Positions 37,851-47,467 of a stretch of DNA of 64,000 bases are shown one piece after another (within the stretch, counting starts at the first letter, position 1; each line of letters opens with the position of its first letter). Under the pieces are notes generated by a model. The model saw nothing but the letters and a program-made list of their open reading frames with translations. It was not told where the DNA came from and did not search any database. The DNA is from Treponema sp. (lineage in GTDB: Bacteria; Spirochaetota; Spirochaetia; Treponematales; Breznakiellaceae), in NCBI GenBank assembly GCA_009781635.1, contig WQXU01000002.1:62001-126000 (forward strand), read 5' to 3'. The position numbers and the translations under genes were made by a program.

Positions 37851-38870
37851 ATGAAAGTTATCACTCTGGGTGAAATAATGCTGCGTCTGGCGCCGGAAGG
37901 CTATTCTCGTTTTGTTCAGGCTGTTTCATACGGCGCAAGCTACGGCGGAGGAGAGGCCAATGTTGCAGTCTCTCTGGCCGGTTACGGCATCGATGCTGCC
38001 TTTGTGACAAAACTGCCGAAGCACGAAATAGGGCAGGGCGCTGTTAATAAATTGAGGGAATTCGGAGTGGATACTTCCTTTATAATCCGCGGAGGCGGCA
38101 GGGTAGGAATATATTATCTTGAAAAAGGCGCATCTCAGAGGCCGTCAAAGGTGATTTATGACCGCGCCAATTCATCAATTGCAACTGCCGCGCAGGCTGA
38201 CTTTGACTGGGATAAAATATTTGACAGAGCTTCATGGTTTCATTTTACGGGGATTACTCCTGCGCTTTCCGAATCCGCCGCAGCAATCTGTATGGCGGCT
38301 TGCAAAGCTGCAAAACAAAAAGGCATTACAGTTTCATGCGACCTTAATTACAGGGCCAATCTCTGGACCCGCGAAAAAGCCGGAGAAGTAATGGGCGGGC
38401 TTATGGAGTATGTAAACCTGTGCATTGCAAACGAGGAAGACTCATCCGATGTTTTTGGAATTAAAGCGCCGGATAGTGATGTGACAAGCGGCAAAATCAG
38501 CCATGACGGCTATAAGGAAGTTGCCGCCGCTCTTGCAAAACGTTTTGGTTTTAAACAGGTTGCAATTACGCTCAGGGAATCAATTTCAGCTAACGATAAT
38601 AACTGGGGAGCCATGCTCTATGACGGTAATGATTATTATTTCTCCAAAAAGTATTCTGTTCACATTGTAGACAGAGTCGGCGGCGGCGACAGTTTCGGAG
38701 CAGGACTTATATATGCAAATCTTAAGGGTATGCCGGCGCAGGAAGGACTGGAGTTTGCAGTAGCCGCAAGCTGTCTTAAGCACACAATCGAAGGCGACTT
38801 TAATCTTGTCAGCGCAGATGAGGTAAAAAAACTTGCAGACGGCAATGCTTCGGGCAGGGTGCAGCGGTAG
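37851..38870 (+). CDS. kdgK: PfkB-family sugar kinase, 2-keto-3-deoxygluconate kinase-like
   Basis: A 339-residue ribokinase-family enzyme. The N-terminal GGEANVAVSLAGYG is the sugar-binding region. The C-terminal VGGGDSFGAGLIYA holds the catalytic aspartate and anion hole. The overall pattern (GEIMLRLAPEG, AFVTKLPKHEIGQGA) resembles KdgK, which phosphorylates 2-dehydro-3-deoxygluconate in uronate breakdown, but the substrate is inferred. An AGGAG site lies upstream, and a TTGACA at 37673 may belong to its promoter, though no matching -10 is clear. Confidence 0.85.
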   Translation: MKVITLGEIMLRLAPEGYSRFVQAVSYGASYGGGEANVAVSLAGYGIDAAFVTKLPKHEIGQGAVNKLREFGVDTSFIIRGGGRVGIYYLEKGASQRPSKVIYDRANSSIATAAQADFDWDKIFDRASWFHFTGITPALSESAAAICMAACKAAKQKGITVSCDLNYRANLWTREKAGEVMGGLMEYVNLCIANEEDSSDVFGIKAPDSDVTSGKISHDGYKEVAAALAKRFGFKQVAITLRESISANDNNWGAMLYDGNDYYFSKKYSVHIVDRVGGGDSFGAGLIYANLKGMPAQEGLEFAVAASCLKHTIEGDFNLVSADEVKKLADGNASGRVQR

Positions 38871-38896
38871 CTGAATGACAGGTGATGGAGAGCAAT

Positions 38897-41281
38897 ATGA
38901 CAAGTAATTCTAATACTGAACTAATGTCTGAATGTCATCAAAAGCTCTTACATACGGTTAATGCAACTGCGCGGATACTTCTTGCCGCAATTGATGAAGA
39001 AACATTTGAAGCATCGGTTCTTGAAGGTATGAATATAATTTCCCAATGCCTTGGATTTGATCGCGGTTATATCTGGCAAAATGAAATGAGAAACGGCGTT
39101 CTTCACTATGCCATGCGTTTTGAATGGCAGAATGATTACGGACGGCAGCATAATCCCGTTGAAAATAAAATTGCTTTTCCCTACAGCGATATTCCGGGAT
39201 GGGCAAAGAAATTCTCTAAAGAAGAATGCGTAAACGGCCCGCTGCATAATTTATCTGAAGATGAACAAATAAGGCTTAAACCTCACGGCATGATGTCTGT
39301 TTTTGCCGTTCCAATTTACATGCAGGAATCTTTCTGGGGATACGTGAGTTTTGACGATTGCCATAATGAGCGCGTTCTTGCCGATCAGGAAATCAATATA
39401 CTCCGCTCTGTCAGTTTTATGATAGTTAATGCGATTAACCGTAATGAACAGACAATTAAAAACCGTGATGAGCACAGGCACCGGAACAGATTGTTAAACA
39501 TGGTAAACAATACCGCAGCAGTTTTGCTTCAGGCTGAAGTTGATGGATTTGAAAATGCATTATCGCTCTGCATGGGAATGATGGGTGAGGAATTATTGGT
39601 CGACCGCGTTTATATCTGGAAAAATCATACCGTAGACGGAAAGTTATACTGTACGCAATTGTATGAGTGGTCGGAAGGCGCGGAGCCGCAGCAGGAAAAT
39701 AAATACACAATAGACATACCGTATAGTGAGAAAATACCAGGATGGGAAGAGATACTTTCTGGCGGACAGTGCGTAAACGGCCCGGTACGCGAAATGGATG
39801 CTGCTGTCCAGGCGCAATTGTCGCCTCAGGGAATATTATCTGTACTGGTAGTGCCGGTTTTTCTGCGGGATCAATTCTGGGGTTTTGTCGGTTTCGATGA
39901 CTGTCACAGAGAGCGGATTTTTTCTGATAACGAAGAATCAATATTGAGATCGGGAAGCCTTTTAATCGCCCATGCAATGCTGCGCAACGATTTAACCCTT
40001 GGTTTGCGCGAGACAGCGATTGAGCTTGAAAAAGCGCTTGAAGAAGCGCAGGCCGCAAGCCGCGCAAAGAGCAATTTTCTTTCCAACATGAGCCATGAAA
40101 TGCGCACGCCTATGAATGCAATTATCGGTATGACGCAAATCGGCAAATCGGCTGCAAGCATGGAAAAGAAAGACTATTCATTTGAAAAAATACAGGGCGC
40201 ATCAAATCATTTGTTAGGTGTAATTAATGATATACTTGATATGTCAAAAATAGAAGCCGGGAAGTTTGAGTTACTTGCTGTTGATTTTAATTTTGGGAAG
40301 ATGCTGCAGAAAGCAATAAGCATTACCAGTTTCCGCATAGAAGAAAAAAAGCAGAATTTCACGCTCTATCTGGATTCAGATATTCCAGGATATTTATCAG
40401 GTGATGATCAAAGGCTAACGCAGATTATAACAAATCTTTTAACCAATGCCGTCAAGTTTACGCCGGAAGAAGGTTCAATCTGGCTGAAGGCGCATCTGGA
40501 AAGCAATACGGATGAAATGTGCACAATTAAAATCGAAGTAAAGGATACGGGAATCGGTATTTCCTCCGAACAGAATATGCGCCTGTTTTCCTCTTTTGAG
40601 CAGGCAGAATCCAGCACCTCGCGGAAATTCGGCGGTACAGGACTTGGGCTTGCAATTTGCAAAAGGATTGTCGAACTTATGGGCGGCAGTATATGGGTAG
40701 AATCCGATCTTGGCAAAGGAGCGGCATTTGTTTTTACTGTTCAGTTAAAACACAGCGCAGGAAAAAAAGAGGAGACAGCTTCGTCTGAGGAAAATAAAAT
40801 AAATGATAAAAAGCCGCAAACATTTCTGGGCCGCCGCCTTCTGTTAGCTGAAGATGTGGAAATAAACCGCGAAATTGTAATATCACTCCTTGAACCTTCA
40901 GAAATTGATATAGAATGCGCGGCGAACGGCGCAGAAGCGGTAAAGATGTTCACTGCTTCTCCTCAGCGGTACGACATGATCCTGATGGATATGCAAATGC
41001 CGCAAATGGACGGACTGGATGCCACGCGTATTATAAGAGAATTTGAAGCAGAGCGGAAAAAACATGACAGCGCCGTTTTAAATGAAGATGAAACCCAAAG
41101 CAGCAATAAAAGTTTGAGTACGCAAATTCCTATTGTTGCAATGACAGCTAACGTTTTCAAGGAAGATGTTAACAGGTGCCTGGAAGCAGGAATGAATGCG
41201 CATATAGGAAAGCCCCTGGATCTTAACGAATTAATGGATGTATTAAACAGGTATATTGGTCAGGGCGCAAGTAAAAAATAA
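38897..41281 (+). CDS. Hybrid sensor histidine kinase with two GAF domains
   Basis: A 794-residue cytoplasmic hybrid kinase. Two GAF-like sensor domains in tandem (about 10-170 and 200-365) are related to each other (both contain CVNGP and GF/GY-DDCH motifs). A coiled linker leads to the HisKA domain (acceptor His in NMSHEMRTPMNAI), the HATPase domain (NLLTNAVKFTPE, DTGIGI, GGTGLGLAIC) and a C-terminal receiver (acceptor Asp in MILMDMQMPQMDG) with a polar insertion before its last part. No membrane segment. The start at 38897 has GGAG six bases upstream; GTG 38882 and ATG 38885 are alternatives. The ligand of the GAF domains is unknown. Confidence 0.9.
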   Translation: MTSNSNTELMSECHQKLLHTVNATARILLAAIDEETFEASVLEGMNIISQCLGFDRGYIWQNEMRNGVLHYAMRFEWQNDYGRQHNPVENKIAFPYSDIPGWAKKFSKEECVNGPLHNLSEDEQIRLKPHGMMSVFAVPIYMQESFWGYVSFDDCHNERVLADQEINILRSVSFMIVNAINRNEQTIKNRDEHRHRNRLLNMVNNTAAVLLQAEVDGFENALSLCMGMMGEELLVDRVYIWKNHTVDGKLYCTQLYEWSEGAEPQQENKYTIDIPYSEKIPGWEEILSGGQCVNGPVREMDAAVQAQLSPQGILSVLVVPVFLRDQFWGFVGFDDCHRERIFSDNEESILRSGSLLIAHAMLRNDLTLGLRETAIELEKALEEAQAASRAKSNFLSNMSHEMRTPMNAIIGMTQIGKSAASMEKKDYSFEKIQGASNHLLGVINDILDMSKIEAGKFELLAVDFNFGKMLQKAISITSFRIEEKKQNFTLYLDSDIPGYLSGDDQRLTQIITNLLTNAVKFTPEEGSIWLKAHLESNTDEMCTIKIEVKDTGIGISSEQNMRLFSSFEQAESSTSRKFGGTGLGLAICKRIVELMGGSIWVESDLGKGAAFVFTVQLKHSAGKKEETASSEENKINDKKPQTFLGRRLLLAEDVEINREIVISLLEPSEIDIECAANGAEAVKMFTASPQRYDMILMDMQMPQMDGLDATRIIREFEAERKKHDSAVLNEDETQSSNKSLSTQIPIVAMTANVFKEDVNRCLEAGMNAHIGKPLDLNELMDVLNRYIGQGASKK

Positions 41282-41771: not shown

Positions 41772-42149
41772 ATGGTAAAAATTCTTGTTGTTGACGACAG
41801 CTTAATAATGAGGAATATTGTAAAAAACACCTTCGCGGAAATGAAAATTAACCACCAATGCCTGGAGGCGGAGAACGGCAAACAGGCGCTGAAAATACTG
41901 GAAGGAAATAATGTAACGATAGTGTTCCTGGACTGGAATATGCCGGGAATGGACGGTATTGAGTTTTTAAAAATTGTAAGGGAGAAACCTGAATATAAGG
42001 ATTTACCGATTATTATGGTTACTTCAGAAAGAGGAAAATTCAGCGTAATCGAAGCTCTTCAAAGCGGAGCCACCGATTATATGATAAAACCTGTTCAGGC
42101 AAAAATATTTAAAGAAAAAGTGCAGGAAATTCTGGTGTTAGCGAGGTAG
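41772..42149 (+). CDS. CheY-like single-domain response regulator
   Basis: A 125-residue stand-alone receiver: acidic VVDDS, phosphoacceptor in VFLDWNMPGMDG, the threonine of MVTSE and the lysine of MIKPV. It starts a three-gene operon with a CheX-type phosphatase and a membrane kinase, so it is probably their shared phosphate carrier. It is a CheY by fold; whether it binds the flagellar motor cannot be told. Confidence 0.92.
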   Translation: MVKILVVDDSLIMRNIVKNTFAEMKINHQCLEAENGKQALKILEGNNVTIVFLDWNMPGMDGIEFLKIVREKPEYKDLPIIMVTSERGKFSVIEALQSGATDYMIKPVQAKIFKEKVQEILVLAR

Positions 42150-42153
42150 AAAG

Positions 42154-42627
42154 ATGGAACAGTATATTCAGCCTTTTATTGAAGGCACAGAAGAAGTTTT
42201 CCGTGATTTATGCAACACGGAAGTAGTAGCAGGCAGGGCATACTTTGTTTCAAAGGATGAGTTTGAAACAATTTGGGATTTATCCGGAATCATCGGGCTC
42301 TCAGGTGAAGCGCATGGAGCTGTTGCCATATCACTGAAAGAAGAGGCCGCTTTTAAACTTACAAATATCCTGACAGGCATGGAGTTTACTTCTGTAGAAA
42401 GAGAAGTTACCGACATGCTTGGGGAAATTGTAAATATTATCACCGGAAATGTTAAAAATGTTTTTGAAAAGAAACACAGAATCAAAATATCAATGCCTTC
42501 TATTATAAAAGGTAAAGCGCATACCATTGTCTGGCCCTCAGAGAAAGCAAGAATTATTTGCATTCCTTTTAAAATATTCGGAGATCAGGAATTCTGTCTT
42601 TCGGTAGCGGTAGAACAAGTAAAATGA
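42154..42627 (+). CDS. CheX-type CheY-phosphatase
   Basis: A 157-residue protein of the CheC/CheX/FliY family, which dephosphorylates CheY-P. The signature helix with its glutamate and asparagine is present (MLGEIVNIITGNVKN); CheX has one such motif and forms dimers. It sits four bases after the CheY-like gene and overlaps the kinase gene by four bases (ATGA). Confidence 0.88.
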   Translation: MEQYIQPFIEGTEEVFRDLCNTEVVAGRAYFVSKDEFETIWDLSGIIGLSGEAHGAVAISLKEEAAFKLTNILTGMEFTSVEREVTDMLGEIVNIITGNVKNVFEKKHRIKISMPSIIKGKAHTIVWPSEKARIICIPFKIFGDQEFCLSVAVEQVK

Positions 42628-44570
42628 AAAAACAAAGCAAAGTAAAAAGTATATTACTTTCAATCTTTCTGGGTAAACGTTATTACGAGCTTACTAATGT
42701 AAAAGACCAGGTAAGGTACATGACCATGAACTGGATTTTCATGGTTGCCACTTTTCCGCTTGTAATTCTTGGCATTACATTAATCTATGTAGATATATCC
42801 AGAACTATCATGTGCTTTACAATCGCGTTTTTATGTTTAGCCGCTCTTATAATGATTCGTTCAAAAATACCTTTGAAATTTGTTCCTGTTTTTCCGGTAA
42901 CGGTTTTCGGAGCGTATTGCTGTTATCTGTTATATCTGGGTGATTACGGCCTTTGGGCTGCCATATGGATATTTGCGTTTCCGCCGATAGTTATCTTTTT
43001 ATGTCAGATGACAGTAGGAGTTATTGAATCAATAATCGTTCTGATTGTTTCTGTTATATTTATGTTTACCCCATTATCGAGTATAGTGCCTGGTGATGAA
43101 ATACGAATAAGGTTTATTGGCGCATACATTCTTATTGCAAGCCTGTCTGTAATATATGAGTGGATAAGTATTCTTAAAGATCGCAAGGAAGACGAACTTA
43201 AGGGAGAGCTTGCCCAGGAAAGAGACATGGTTCAGACCATGAAGGATAATATTAATCAGGGAATATTCCTCATGGATAAGGATTTGACTATTCTTCCCCA
43301 GTATTCACGCACATTAATTTCTATTCTTTCCTATTATGAATCGGATTTGACAGGCAAGAGTTTCCTTGATATTATCCGCGCTTCGCTTGACGCAAGGCAG
43401 ATTCAGGTCATGAAAGGCTATTTTGCTATGGTCTTTTCAAAGGAAAAAACCGCAAAAGTTCTGGAAGCCGCCAATCCGCTTTCCGAGTTTGAGCTTAAGG
43501 TTGATGATGAAATAAAATATTTAAACACAAGGTTCCAGTTGATCGAGCAGGCCAATTCGGACCCTGTTATCATAGGAATCATACAGGACGTATCAAGAGA
43601 AAGAGAAATTGAAAATGAACTTCAGGCTCAAAAAGAAGTCCAGGAAATTGAAATGAAGAACATGTTCGATGTTATCAAGGTTGATCCTCTTGTCTTCCAG
43701 AACTTTATAGAAGATACCGAATCCAACTTTAATAGTATTAATAAACTTTTAAAAGACCGAAACCTCTCGGAAAAAGAAGTAGTTGTAAGAATTTTTCAGT
43801 ATGTTCATGCCATTAAGTCCAATGCTGTTATTCTTGATCTTGAAAGCCTTGCCAATAAACTTCATGTTCTGGAAGATGACATTAAAGCTCTTTCCAATAA
43901 AGAGAGGGTTTTTACAAATGACATGCTTAGTCTTGCCGTTAAAATAGAAACCTTTATGCAGGAAATGGATTCCTATGTTGCAATTACAAAGAAAATCACC
44001 GCATACAAATCTACCAATCAGATGGACACAATCCTTACAAGTTCTCTGTCCAAAGCTGTGGACAAATTGTCGGGAGAACTTCATAAAAAAGTAAAAATAA
44101 AAGCCGGCCTTATTGATTTGGCCATTCTTGAGTCGAAACTGCGTAAACCAATAAAAGACATTTTATTCCAATGCGTAAGAAATTCCATTTATCACGGCAT
44201 TGAAACAGTAGAGGAAAGAATCAGGAAAAACAAGAATCCCCAGGGACTTTTAACATTTAATATTAAGAATGTAGAGGGCAAGGCGGAAGTTTCATTTTCT
44301 GATGACGGCCGCGGTCTTGACTGGAATAAGATAAAGAAAAAGTTTCAGGAAAGAAACCCCGGCGTAAAAGTGGACAAAAAAGTTCTTTTGGGATCCATTT
44401 TCTCACCGGAGTTTTCTACAGCCGAAGAAGGCAGCGACAGCCTCCATGCCGGACGGGGTGTAGGATTAAGCCTTGTAAGGGACATTATAAAAGAATACAA
44501 CGGCTCCATTAATGTCAATTCCGGAGAATCCGGCCTTACGTTTAAATTTACATTTCCCATAACAGGATAA
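42624..44570 (+). CDS. Membrane CheA-like histidine kinase without a CheW domain
   Basis: A 648-residue protein. Residues 1-195 form a multi-pass membrane module related to that of the chemoreceptor at 5876-7459. Then a PAS-like domain (about 205-325), a phosphotransfer domain with acceptor His in QYVHAIKSNAV (near residue 395), a linker, and a CheA-type ATPase (CVRNSIYHGIETVEER, then SDDGRGL and GRGVGLSL). It stops right after the ATPase, so the CheW-binding regulatory domain is missing and no clear P3 dimerisation domain is visible. It should work as a self-contained membrane sensor that phosphorylates the CheY encoded two genes upstream. Confidence 0.85.
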   Translation: MKKQSKVKSILLSIFLGKRYYELTNVKDQVRYMTMNWIFMVATFPLVILGITLIYVDISRTIMCFTIAFLCLAALIMIRSKIPLKFVPVFPVTVFGAYCCYLLYLGDYGLWAAIWIFAFPPIVIFLCQMTVGVIESIIVLIVSVIFMFTPLSSIVPGDEIRIRFIGAYILIASLSVIYEWISILKDRKEDELKGELAQERDMVQTMKDNINQGIFLMDKDLTILPQYSRTLISILSYYESDLTGKSFLDIIRASLDARQIQVMKGYFAMVFSKEKTAKVLEAANPLSEFELKVDDEIKYLNTRFQLIEQANSDPVIIGIIQDVSREREIENELQAQKEVQEIEMKNMFDVIKVDPLVFQNFIEDTESNFNSINKLLKDRNLSEKEVVVRIFQYVHAIKSNAVILDLESLANKLHVLEDDIKALSNKERVFTNDMLSLAVKIETFMQEMDSYVAITKKITAYKSTNQMDTILTSSLSKAVDKLSGELHKKVKIKAGLIDLAILESKLRKPIKDILFQCVRNSIYHGIETVEERIRKNKNPQGLLTFNIKNVEGKAEVSFSDDGRGLDWNKIKKKFQERNPGVKVDKKVLLGSIFSPEFSTAEEGSDSLHAGRGVGLSLVRDIIKEYNGSINVNSGESGLTFKFTFPITG

Positions 44571-44623: not shown

Positions 44624-45949
44624 ATGAAAGAAAAATTCAAAAATTTATTTCCTTTATTTATTCTCCCGATAATCCTTGTAATTTGCGCAGGTCTTTGGGT
44701 TGGACTTTCATCAGGCCGATATGAAAACGTACAAAGCGATGAAACCGGAACATGGGATTTAAGATATTTTGATTTTAATAAAACCAATGCACGATTAACA
44801 GGTGCTGTGGAATTTATCCCGAATGTATTACTGACTCCGGATGAATTTACCGCCCGCGAAAACGAGAGTATCGCAGGTTTCCCGGCAGAAAAAGCGGATT
44901 TTTCGACAAGCCGGATAAGGCTTCTTGTCCCGGAGGGAAATTACACTTTTTCAAGAATTAGTACAGATTATGCTGACCGTATTTTTATAAACGGGATCTG
45001 GCTGCACGATGTGGGAAACCCTGCGAAAGATCTAAAAGACGGCACAGCGTTTACATCAAGGGTTACATTTACAGTGCAAGCTGTCGACGGAATAATCGAA
45101 ATAATTCAGCAAACTTCCAATTTTTCACTTAGAGGCAAAAACAGGGATGCACAGGATTGGATTATTGGAAAATATAATTACGCTTATTCCGTTTTACAAG
45201 CGGATTTTACCGTATCAATAATAATTGGCTGTTATCTTGTCATGTTCTTTATTTTCGCTTCAATGTATTTTTTTATGAACAGTTACCGTCCGTCATTGTA
45301 TTTTGCTTTGTTTTGCCTGATGTGGTTTTTCCGCTCGGGAATAACAGGATCAAGGATATTCGCTTCGCTGCTGCCGTGGCTTTCCGGTTATTTATCAATG
45401 CGGATAGAATATATCTCCTTGCCTGTGGCGGCAGTTTTAACAGTGGCTATCATCAGTTATTTATTCCCGGGAGTTTTGCATAATATTTTTTGCAAAATCC
45501 TGAATATTGTATCGGCGATATTGGCGGTTCTTATTGCTGTATTAGATATACTTTTAATTGTCCATATAGTTTTAATATGCCAGATTTTTTATTTTTTATG
45601 TATTGTTTATATACTTGTAAAAGCTGTAATAAAGGTTCGCAAAATTGATATTGTAAAAAGTATTTTTTTAATTGGCGCCGGAATTTTTTTATACGGTGCA
45701 ATACGGGATTTCTCATATTATAGTTTTTCATTTATTCCGCTTTTACCGCCGTTTTCGGATGCGAATTTTACTCAAATTACCGTATTGTCATTTGCATTAT
45801 GCAAAGCGACAGCCGTCTTTATTTCTACAATGAGAAAAATGCGTGATATCGAAGTAAAAAATATGTCTCTGGAAACCGAAATTGACTTTTTGCAAAAACG
45901 GCTTAATATTCTGCAGGAAATAAAAAAAGGCAGGGGGTTGAAGAAATAA
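44624..45949 (+). CDS. 7TMR-DISM-type receptor
   Basis: A 441-residue receptor. A first membrane helix (about 8-26) is followed by a predicted extracytoplasmic sensor domain (about 30-190, with a jelly-roll-like DISMED2 pattern), then seven membrane helices (about 195-410), and a short cytoplasmic coiled coil (LETEIDFLQKRLNILQ). The frame ends soon after. The overlapping -1 frame continues, without a stop, into a winged-helix domain, so the gene may encode two products: a receptor, and a receptor-transcription factor fusion made by frameshifting at 45922-45928. It probably starts transcription at its own ATG. Confidence 0.82.
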   Translation: MKEKFKNLFPLFILPIILVICAGLWVGLSSGRYENVQSDETGTWDLRYFDFNKTNARLTGAVEFIPNVLLTPDEFTARENESIAGFPAEKADFSTSRIRLLVPEGNYTFSRISTDYADRIFINGIWLHDVGNPAKDLKDGTAFTSRVTFTVQAVDGIIEIIQQTSNFSLRGKNRDAQDWIIGKYNYAYSVLQADFTVSIIIGCYLVMFFIFASMYFFMNSYRPSLYFALFCLMWFFRSGITGSRIFASLLPWLSGYLSMRIEYISLPVAAVLTVAIISYLFPGVLHNIFCKILNIVSAILAVLIAVLDILLIVHIVLICQIFYFLCIVYILVKAVIKVRKIDIVKSIFLIGAGIFLYGAIRDFSYYSFSFIPLLPPFSDANFTQITVLSFALCKATAVFISTMRKMRDIEVKNMSLETEIDFLQKRLNILQEIKKGRGLKK

Positions 45950-45962
45950 TCCTAAACCCTTT
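45922..45962 (+). promoter_or_regulatory. Candidate -1 ribosomal frameshift signal
   Basis: The heptamer A-AAA-AAA (45922-45928) lies in the correct phase for -1 slippage of the receptor frame. AGGA (45915-45918) just upstream resembles an internal Shine-Dalgarno stimulator. Three bases downstream a stem forms between 45932-45939 and 45955-45962 (AGGGGGTT with AACCCTTT: six Watson-Crick pairs, two G-U) around a 15-base loop that contains the zero-frame stop. Confidence 0.5.
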
Positions 45963-45975
45963 TAAGTTAAATACG

Positions 45976-46236
45976 GTGTCAAACATGGCATTTATAAATG
46001 ATGTTGATATGATGCTTACGCCTAAAGAATTTTCCCTGCTTCTGATTTTTATTAAAAACGAGGGGCGTGTTTTAAGCGCGGAATACATTTATGGAAATAT
46101 ATGGAATCAGCAATTGGAAAATAATAATATAAGTACATTAAAAAAGACCATCTCAAATTTACGAAAAAAAATTGAGCCTTCAGGTTATACAATAGATGCA
46201 TCCTACCGCAAAGGTTATGTTTTTGAGCGTATTTAA
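45976..46236 (+). CDS. OmpR-type winged-helix domain, in -1 frame to the 7TM receptor
   Basis: An OmpR/PhoB C-terminal-type DNA-binding domain: LTPKEFSLLLIFIKNEGRV, then an AEYIYGNIW recognition-helix region and a wing (DASYRKGYVFERI). Counted as a separate gene it would start at GTG 45976 or ATG 45985 with no ribosome-binding site and would lack the domain's first strand. The frame is open back to 45907, and the residues there (EEIILNPFKLNTV) supply that strand, so the natural product is probably a fusion to the receptor. Either a programmed frameshift or a disabling one-base deletion would explain this. Confidence 0.7.
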   Translation: MSNMAFINDVDMMLTPKEFSLLLIFIKNEGRVLSAEYIYGNIWNQQLENNNISTLKKTISNLRKKIEPSGYTIDASYRKGYVFERI

Positions 46237-46360: not shown

Positions 46361-47467
46361 ATGAAAAGTACAAAATTTTTTAGGCTATTTATCGCACTTA
46401 TCGCAATAATTGGCTATGTGTTTATAACAATGGCTTTGACAGGGTGCAATGACGGCGGCAGCGCGCCAATCAGCCAGCAGCCTTGCGCCGACTGCGGCGA
46501 GCTTCCATGCGAGTGTCCGCCCGAACCCTGTGATGACTGCGGCGAGCTTCCATGCGAGTGTCCGCCCGAACCCTGTGATGACTGCGGCGAGCTTCCATGC
46601 GAGTGTCCGACTGAGCCCTGTGATGTATGCGGCGAGCTTCCATGCGAATGTCCGCCCGAACCCTGTGATGTATGCGGCGAGCTTCCATGCGAGTGTCCGC
46701 CCGAACCCTGTGATGTATGCGGCGAGCTTCCATGCGAATGTCCACCCGAGCCCTGTGATGTATGCGGCGAGCCGGAAGCAGACTGTACCTGTGACGAAAG
46801 CGGCGATATATGTGATGTATGCGGCGAACCGGAAGCAGACTGTACCTGTGACGAAAGCGGCGATATATGTGATGTATGCGGCGAACCGGAAGCAGACTGT
46901 ACCTGTGACGAAGGCGGCGATACATGTGATGTATGCGGCGAACCGGAAGCAGACTGTACCTGTGACGAAAGCGGCGATATATGTGATGTATGCGGCGAAC
47001 CGGAAGCAGACTGTACCTGTGACGAAAGCGGCGATATATGTGATGTATGCGGCGAGCCGGAAGCAGACTGTACCTGCGATGAAGGCGGCGATATATGTGA
47101 TGTATGCGGCGAGCTCCTCTGCGAGTGTCCCCAGGGTGATATAAACATCAGCTTTGTTATTAGTGGTAACAATCTGGAGTTATACCAGGATAACAGCGTA
47201 CTTTCTCTGAATGCGGATGATCATATCACCATAACCGGCGAAGGCGATTTTGATTCTTATGATATATTTGTTGATGGTGTTTTTTACGCTCATATAGATG
47301 AGCCGGAAATCGATTATATGTTTGGCGTAGAAGAGTTATACAATTTTGCCATAAATGAACTTGGCTATTCCGAAGACAGAGCGTTTGGACTATATAAAAT
47401 AATGATTGTTGTGCGGAAAAACGGTGTGCCTTATTCCAGTGAAATATCTGTCACATTAGAACCATAA
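46361..47467 (+). CDS. Cysteine-rich tandem-repeat lipoprotein
   Basis: A 368-residue lipoprotein: signal peptide and lipobox (ALTGC, about residue 28), then 13 tandem units each with four cysteines, then a 110-residue globular domain with no cysteine. Units 1-6 are 15 residues (C-D-x-C-G-E-L-P-C-E-C-P-P-E-P). Units 7-12 are 19 residues (CDVCGEPEADCTC followed by DESGDI). Unit 13 is a truncated first type. The CxxCG cores resemble zinc-ribbon knuckles or metal-binding sites, in an acidic, proline-rich setting that suggests a stiff surface stalk. Metal binding is inference. It is followed ten bases later by another lipoprotein gene. Confidence 0.8.
   Translation: MKSTKFFRLFIALIAIIGYVFITMALTGCNDGGSAPISQQPCADCGELPCECPPEPCDDCGELPCECPPEPCDDCGELPCECPTEPCDVCGELPCECPPEPCDVCGELPCECPPEPCDVCGELPCECPPEPCDVCGEPEADCTCDESGDICDVCGEPEADCTCDESGDICDVCGEPEADCTCDEGGDTCDVCGEPEADCTCDESGDICDVCGEPEADCTCDESGDICDVCGEPEADCTCDEGGDICDVCGELLCECPQGDINISFVISGNNLELYQDNSVLSLNADDHITITGEGDFDSYDIFVDGVFYAHIDEPEIDYMFGVEELYNFAINELGYSEDRAFGLYKIMIVVRKNGVPYSSEISVTLEP
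46484..46753 (+). repeat. Six 45-base tandem repeats (15-residue cysteine units)
   Basis: Six in-frame copies starting at TGC 46484, nearly identical at the DNA level, with variation mostly in the second codon (GCC, GAC or GTA). Near-identity suggests recent expansion or gene conversion. Confidence 0.9.
46754..47095 (+). repeat. Six 57-base tandem repeats (19-residue cysteine units)
   Basis: Six in-frame copies starting at TGT 46754, 46811, 46868, 46925, 46982 and 47039. Copies differ at a few bases (AGC or GGC at one codon). The first bases match the 45-base family, so the two families share an origin. Confidence 0.9.

Follow-up and report, generated by a model that had tools for sequence, protein, structure and literature searches.

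The window analysed here is a stretch of 64,000 nucleotides of Treponema sp. DNA, in which a 7TM receptor ORF runs into an open -1 frame that encodes a C-terminal winged helix (Table 1). A sequence-only reading of this DNA had placed both frames, and our ORF and Pfam analysis found its coordinates and frames to be correct. The receptor matches PF07695 (7TMR-DISM_7TM) with an E value of 2e-10 and 41.3 bits (cut-off 29). Its layout consists of an N-terminal membrane anchor, an extracytoplasmic domain of ~160 aa, the 7TMR-DISM_7TM domain at aa 196-397 and a coiled-coil linker. No Pfam match was obtained for the ~160 aa that separate the first membrane helix from the 7TM domain, DISMED1 and DISMED2 having been sought, and the predicted structure of a one-frame relative was too poor to use (pLDDT 35).

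Table 1. Features at the junction of the receptor and winged-helix frames, in window coordinates
Feature	Position	Strand	Remarks
Receptor ORF	44624..45949	+	441 aa; stop TAA 45947-45949
-1 open frame, C-terminal OmpR-type winged helix (Trans_reg_C)	45907..46236	+	
AGGA	45915..45918	+	3 nt before the heptamer
A-run, seven A's in phase as A_AAA_AAA	45922..45928	+	Site of the indel; one base shorter than in L021 (DNA alignment)
Possible hairpin	45932..45962	+	Arms 45932-45939 and 45955-45962; -8.5 kcal/mol

The downstream winged helix is certainly real coding sequence. It matches PF00486 (Trans_reg_C) with an E value of 4e-15 and 55.9 bits (cut-off 26.2), and the product of the -1 frame is homologous to the C-termini of four related loci (L021, L022, L024 and L025). 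The -1 frame has no ATG, GTG or TTG before the GTG at 45976, which falls within the first strands of the domain; the earlier claim that the first strand lies upstream of any usable start is thereby borne out. This in-frame GTG could in principle serve for translation of the winged helix alone, as an independent small regulator. Such a product is highly improbable: initiation at this codon removes the first strand of the domain, no obvious Shine-Dalgarno sequence precedes it (AAGTTAAATACG), and the domain is fused to the receptor in every full-length relative. Among the homologues, the winged helix was nowhere found as a gene of its own with a ribosome-binding site.

Directly upstream of the receptor, at 41772-44570, lie CheY-like, CheX-like and membrane histidine-kinase-like genes. 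The gene immediately downstream, at 46361-47467, is predicted to encode a lipoprotein; its Cys-rich tandem repeats, 45 and 57 bases long (CGELPCECPPEPCD and CDVCGEPEADCTCDESGDI), are present in six copies each. The neighbors of L021 differ from those in the window, and the receptor gene therefore moves between places.

One-frame relatives and selection on the tail

The closest relative of the window gene is L021 (L002 of genome G008), which is 84-85% identical and lies on contig WQXI01000063.1 of the Treponema MAG Emb289P3bin15. This MAG derives from the gut of Embiratermes neotenicus and was sequenced by Illumina (PMC7024585). L021 is a single open frame of 546 codons that spans the junction and includes the winged helix. 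In the DNA alignment of the junction, the window reads ATAAAA-AAAGGCAG and L021 reads ATAAAAGAAAGACAG, so that the window has one base fewer; this missing base of the A-run is the sole gap between the two genes from the start codon to 46093. Further full-length one-frame homologues occur in G029 (593 codons), G012 (595 codons) and G007 (615 codons). These are 25-35% identical to L002, and both Pfam domains are present in each.

Receptor and winged helix thus share one unbroken frame in all four full-length relatives, and the full-length matches in genomes sampled across the order included no further split gene. The sequence-only reading had held that the two parts belong to one protein, and four relatives encode exactly that. 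It had further proposed that they are joined through a programmed -1 frameshift. The same split with a conserved heptamer was not found in the homologues, and what was found instead, one-frame genes and a one-base difference, speaks against such a frameshift.

Selection on the tail was assessed between the window and L021. The dN/dS ratio was 0.22 upstream of the junction and 0.20 downstream, where the tail was read in the -1 frame, and the winged-helix tail contains no further stop or frame break. Since the ratio is equal on either side of the junction, translation of the tail has continued through most, if not all, of the period after the two lineages split. An old pseudogene is excluded by the dN/dS of ~0.2 in the tail. 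Selection on the tail is compatible with a break that is very recent, artefactual or rescued.

The end of the domain has a separate history. Window positions 46093-46233, which cover the recognition helix and wing, are 57% identical to L021, compared with 78-85% elsewhere, and synonymous sites there are near saturation (pS 0.85). This segment is nearer to L024 (63%), and the corresponding half of L021 is nearer to the plain response regulator L026 (61%). Judged from these identities, recombination appears to have exchanged the half of the winged helix that contacts DNA.

Junction elements and the background of one-base breaks

Programmed -1 ribosomal frameshifting as in dnaX would yield a fused receptor-regulator beside a receptor ending in the coiled coil, and the ratio of the two products had been suggested to regulate signalling. 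The parts named for this signal, an in-phase A_AAA_AAA, an upstream AGGA and a possible downstream hairpin, are all present, and the -1 frame is intact and under purifying selection; the spacing, the stem strength and the lack of conservation speak against it. Stimulatory Shine-Dalgarno sequences are spaced 9-14 nt from the slippery site for -1 shifting and 3 nt for +1 shifting (PMC5009743), so the AGGA stands at the +1 spacing. The same AGGA occurs in L021, where it is plain coding sequence (Gln-Glu). The stem has a z-score of -0.67 and was equalled or bettered by 50 of 200 shuffles. L021 has neither stem nor heptamer, its A-run being interrupted by a G, and both split and heptamer are absent from all the relatives.

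The heptamer is also common in the ORFs of this genome. In-phase A_AAA_AAA occurs at 545 sites in the 1047 long ORFs of 1.57 Mb, with at least one in 385 of these ORFs (37%); where the stop of an ORF sits inside a long -1 open frame, the overlap contains it in 8 of 188 cases. Given a common heptamer, an ordinary stem and an AGGA at the +1 spacing, the three elements together are not strong evidence. The genome also has a tRNA-Lys(CUU), in which it differs from the E. coli setting. With one-frame relatives on one side and similar breaks in unrelated conserved genes (below) on the other, the proposed dnaX-like frameshift and its two-product ratio are very unlikely.

In order to place the missing base against a background, frame breaks were surveyed between 1.57 Mb of this genome (G000) and 1.18 Mb of G008, which share 542 orthologous ORFs comprising ~165,000 residues. 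Automatic split hits included antisense and short shadow ORFs, and breaks were counted only if verified by DNA alignment. Among the 542 orthologues, three G000 genes besides the window gene are split by a single missing base, namely glgC, metH and a gene for a DEAH helicase. The break in glgC (contig C11, ~37857-39124, minus strand) shortens an A-run from A8 to A7 in a gene whose identity is otherwise 94-96%, and the genome holds no second copy of glgC. In G008, two adjoining NuoF/HydA-like genes (NADH-dehydrogenase or hydrogenase-like; contig C2, ~87.4-89.5 kb) are each one base short relative to G000. One-base losses thus affect ~0.3-0.6% of orthologues in both assemblies. Homopolymer depletion, a sign of long-read error, was not seen, A/T runs of 7-9 being about equally frequent in G000 and G008. 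Because breaks are rare and A/T runs are not depleted, the assembly has no gross homopolymer error problem. The loss in the sole glgC favors error as the source of part of the one-base losses.

Origin of the break

We consider the locus to be an ancestral fusion of a 7TM receptor and a transcription factor that has undergone a recent or artefactual one-base deletion, with a probability of roughly 0.87. Taken together, an error in sequencing or assembly and a recent, genuine slip in the homopolymer very probably account for the missing base. An ordinary slip is preferred to a programmed frameshift because the four closest full-length relatives are unbroken in one frame. Two observations weigh against the ancestral fusion with a one-base deletion: such breaks are rare (~0.5% of orthologues) in an assembly that is not grossly error-ridden, and an intact tail is equally expected from a frameshift that is in use.

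The intact protein would be a membrane one-component regulator in which an extracytoplasmic sensor is followed by the 7TMR-DISM domain in the membrane, and a coiled coil on the cytoplasmic side leads to the OmpR-type winged helix at the C-terminus. A ligand would be sensed outside the cytoplasm, and the coiled coil would pass the signal on to a dimer bound to DNA. With both functions in a single chain, a membrane receptor could control genes with no need of a partner protein. With one base gone from the junction A-run, the winged helix falls in the -1 frame. Should this break be real, a receptor ending in the coiled coil would be made, with little or no fused protein: no slippage by E. coli RNA polymerase was detected on runs shorter than eight A's (PMC6260861).

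That limit, and the ~9 A's used in the cases reviewed in PMC5009743, also bear on a real deletion partly rescued by slippage of RNA polymerase, or weakly of the ribosome, on the A-run, which would supply some fused protein. A spirochaete polymerase may differ from that of E. coli, poly-A rescue has a precedent in tssM1 with its A11 (PMC4256274), the winged-helix tail is without decay, and glgC of this genome has a like break from A8 to A7; a rescue on seven A's is nonetheless improbable. In a more specific form, the one-base loss would be real and fixed in the species, and slippage on the A-run would yield a small share of tethered transcription factor beside a receptor that lacks DNA-binding output. 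We assign this form a low probability; if true, a recoding switch specific to this lineage would have arisen recently in a 7TM receptor. Recoding of any kind accounts in total for a small part of the probability.

Comparison with known systems

The junction resembles the programmed -1 frameshift of dnaX in its A-rich heptamer, its Shine-Dalgarno-like motif and a possible hairpin nearby. It differs in that the Shine-Dalgarno spacing is wrong, the stem is ordinary, the elements are not conserved and the relatives need no shift; the dnaX heptamer, A_AAA_AAG, is also shiftier than the A_AAA_AAA found here. The poly-A transcriptional frameshift of tssM1 in Citrobacter rodentium (PMC4256274) is alike in that an ancestral single-frame gene is interrupted beside an A-run, although the run there has 11 A's compared with seven here, and the present case is known from sequence alone. 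The main lesson of the frameshift claim is that frame breaks at A-runs in draft genomes can imitate dnaX-type signals.

The known 7TMR-DISM receptors (PF07695), such as RetS, LadS, NicD and RgsP, likewise have a 7TM domain in the membrane, with the N-terminus outside the cytoplasm and an output module at the intracellular C-terminal end. This module is part of the same polypeptide in the four relatives and lies out of frame in the window. In the known receptors the output is a kinase, GGDEF or EAL domain, whereas here it is an OmpR-type winged helix. Direct interaction with DNA was reportedly already predicted for some members in the 2003 survey of 7TMR-DISM by Anantharaman and Aravind. Membrane-bound one-component regulators such as ToxR and CadC tether an OmpR-type winged helix to the inner membrane and act without a phosphorelay. 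Their winged helix is N-terminal and followed by one transmembrane helix, whereas in the present protein it forms the C-terminus and is preceded by seven helices and a coiled coil. 7TMR-DISM receptors are common in spirochaetes (PMC6107284), in the ChiS family 7TMR-DISM is known to be fused to a different DNA-binding domain (PMC8092284), and coiled-coil 'signalling helices' that join sensors to HTH domains have been recorded, though infrequently (PMC1592074). A 7TM receptor that carries a winged helix at its C-terminus in one chain represents a small, little-studied branch of this known receptor class in termite-gut Treponema.
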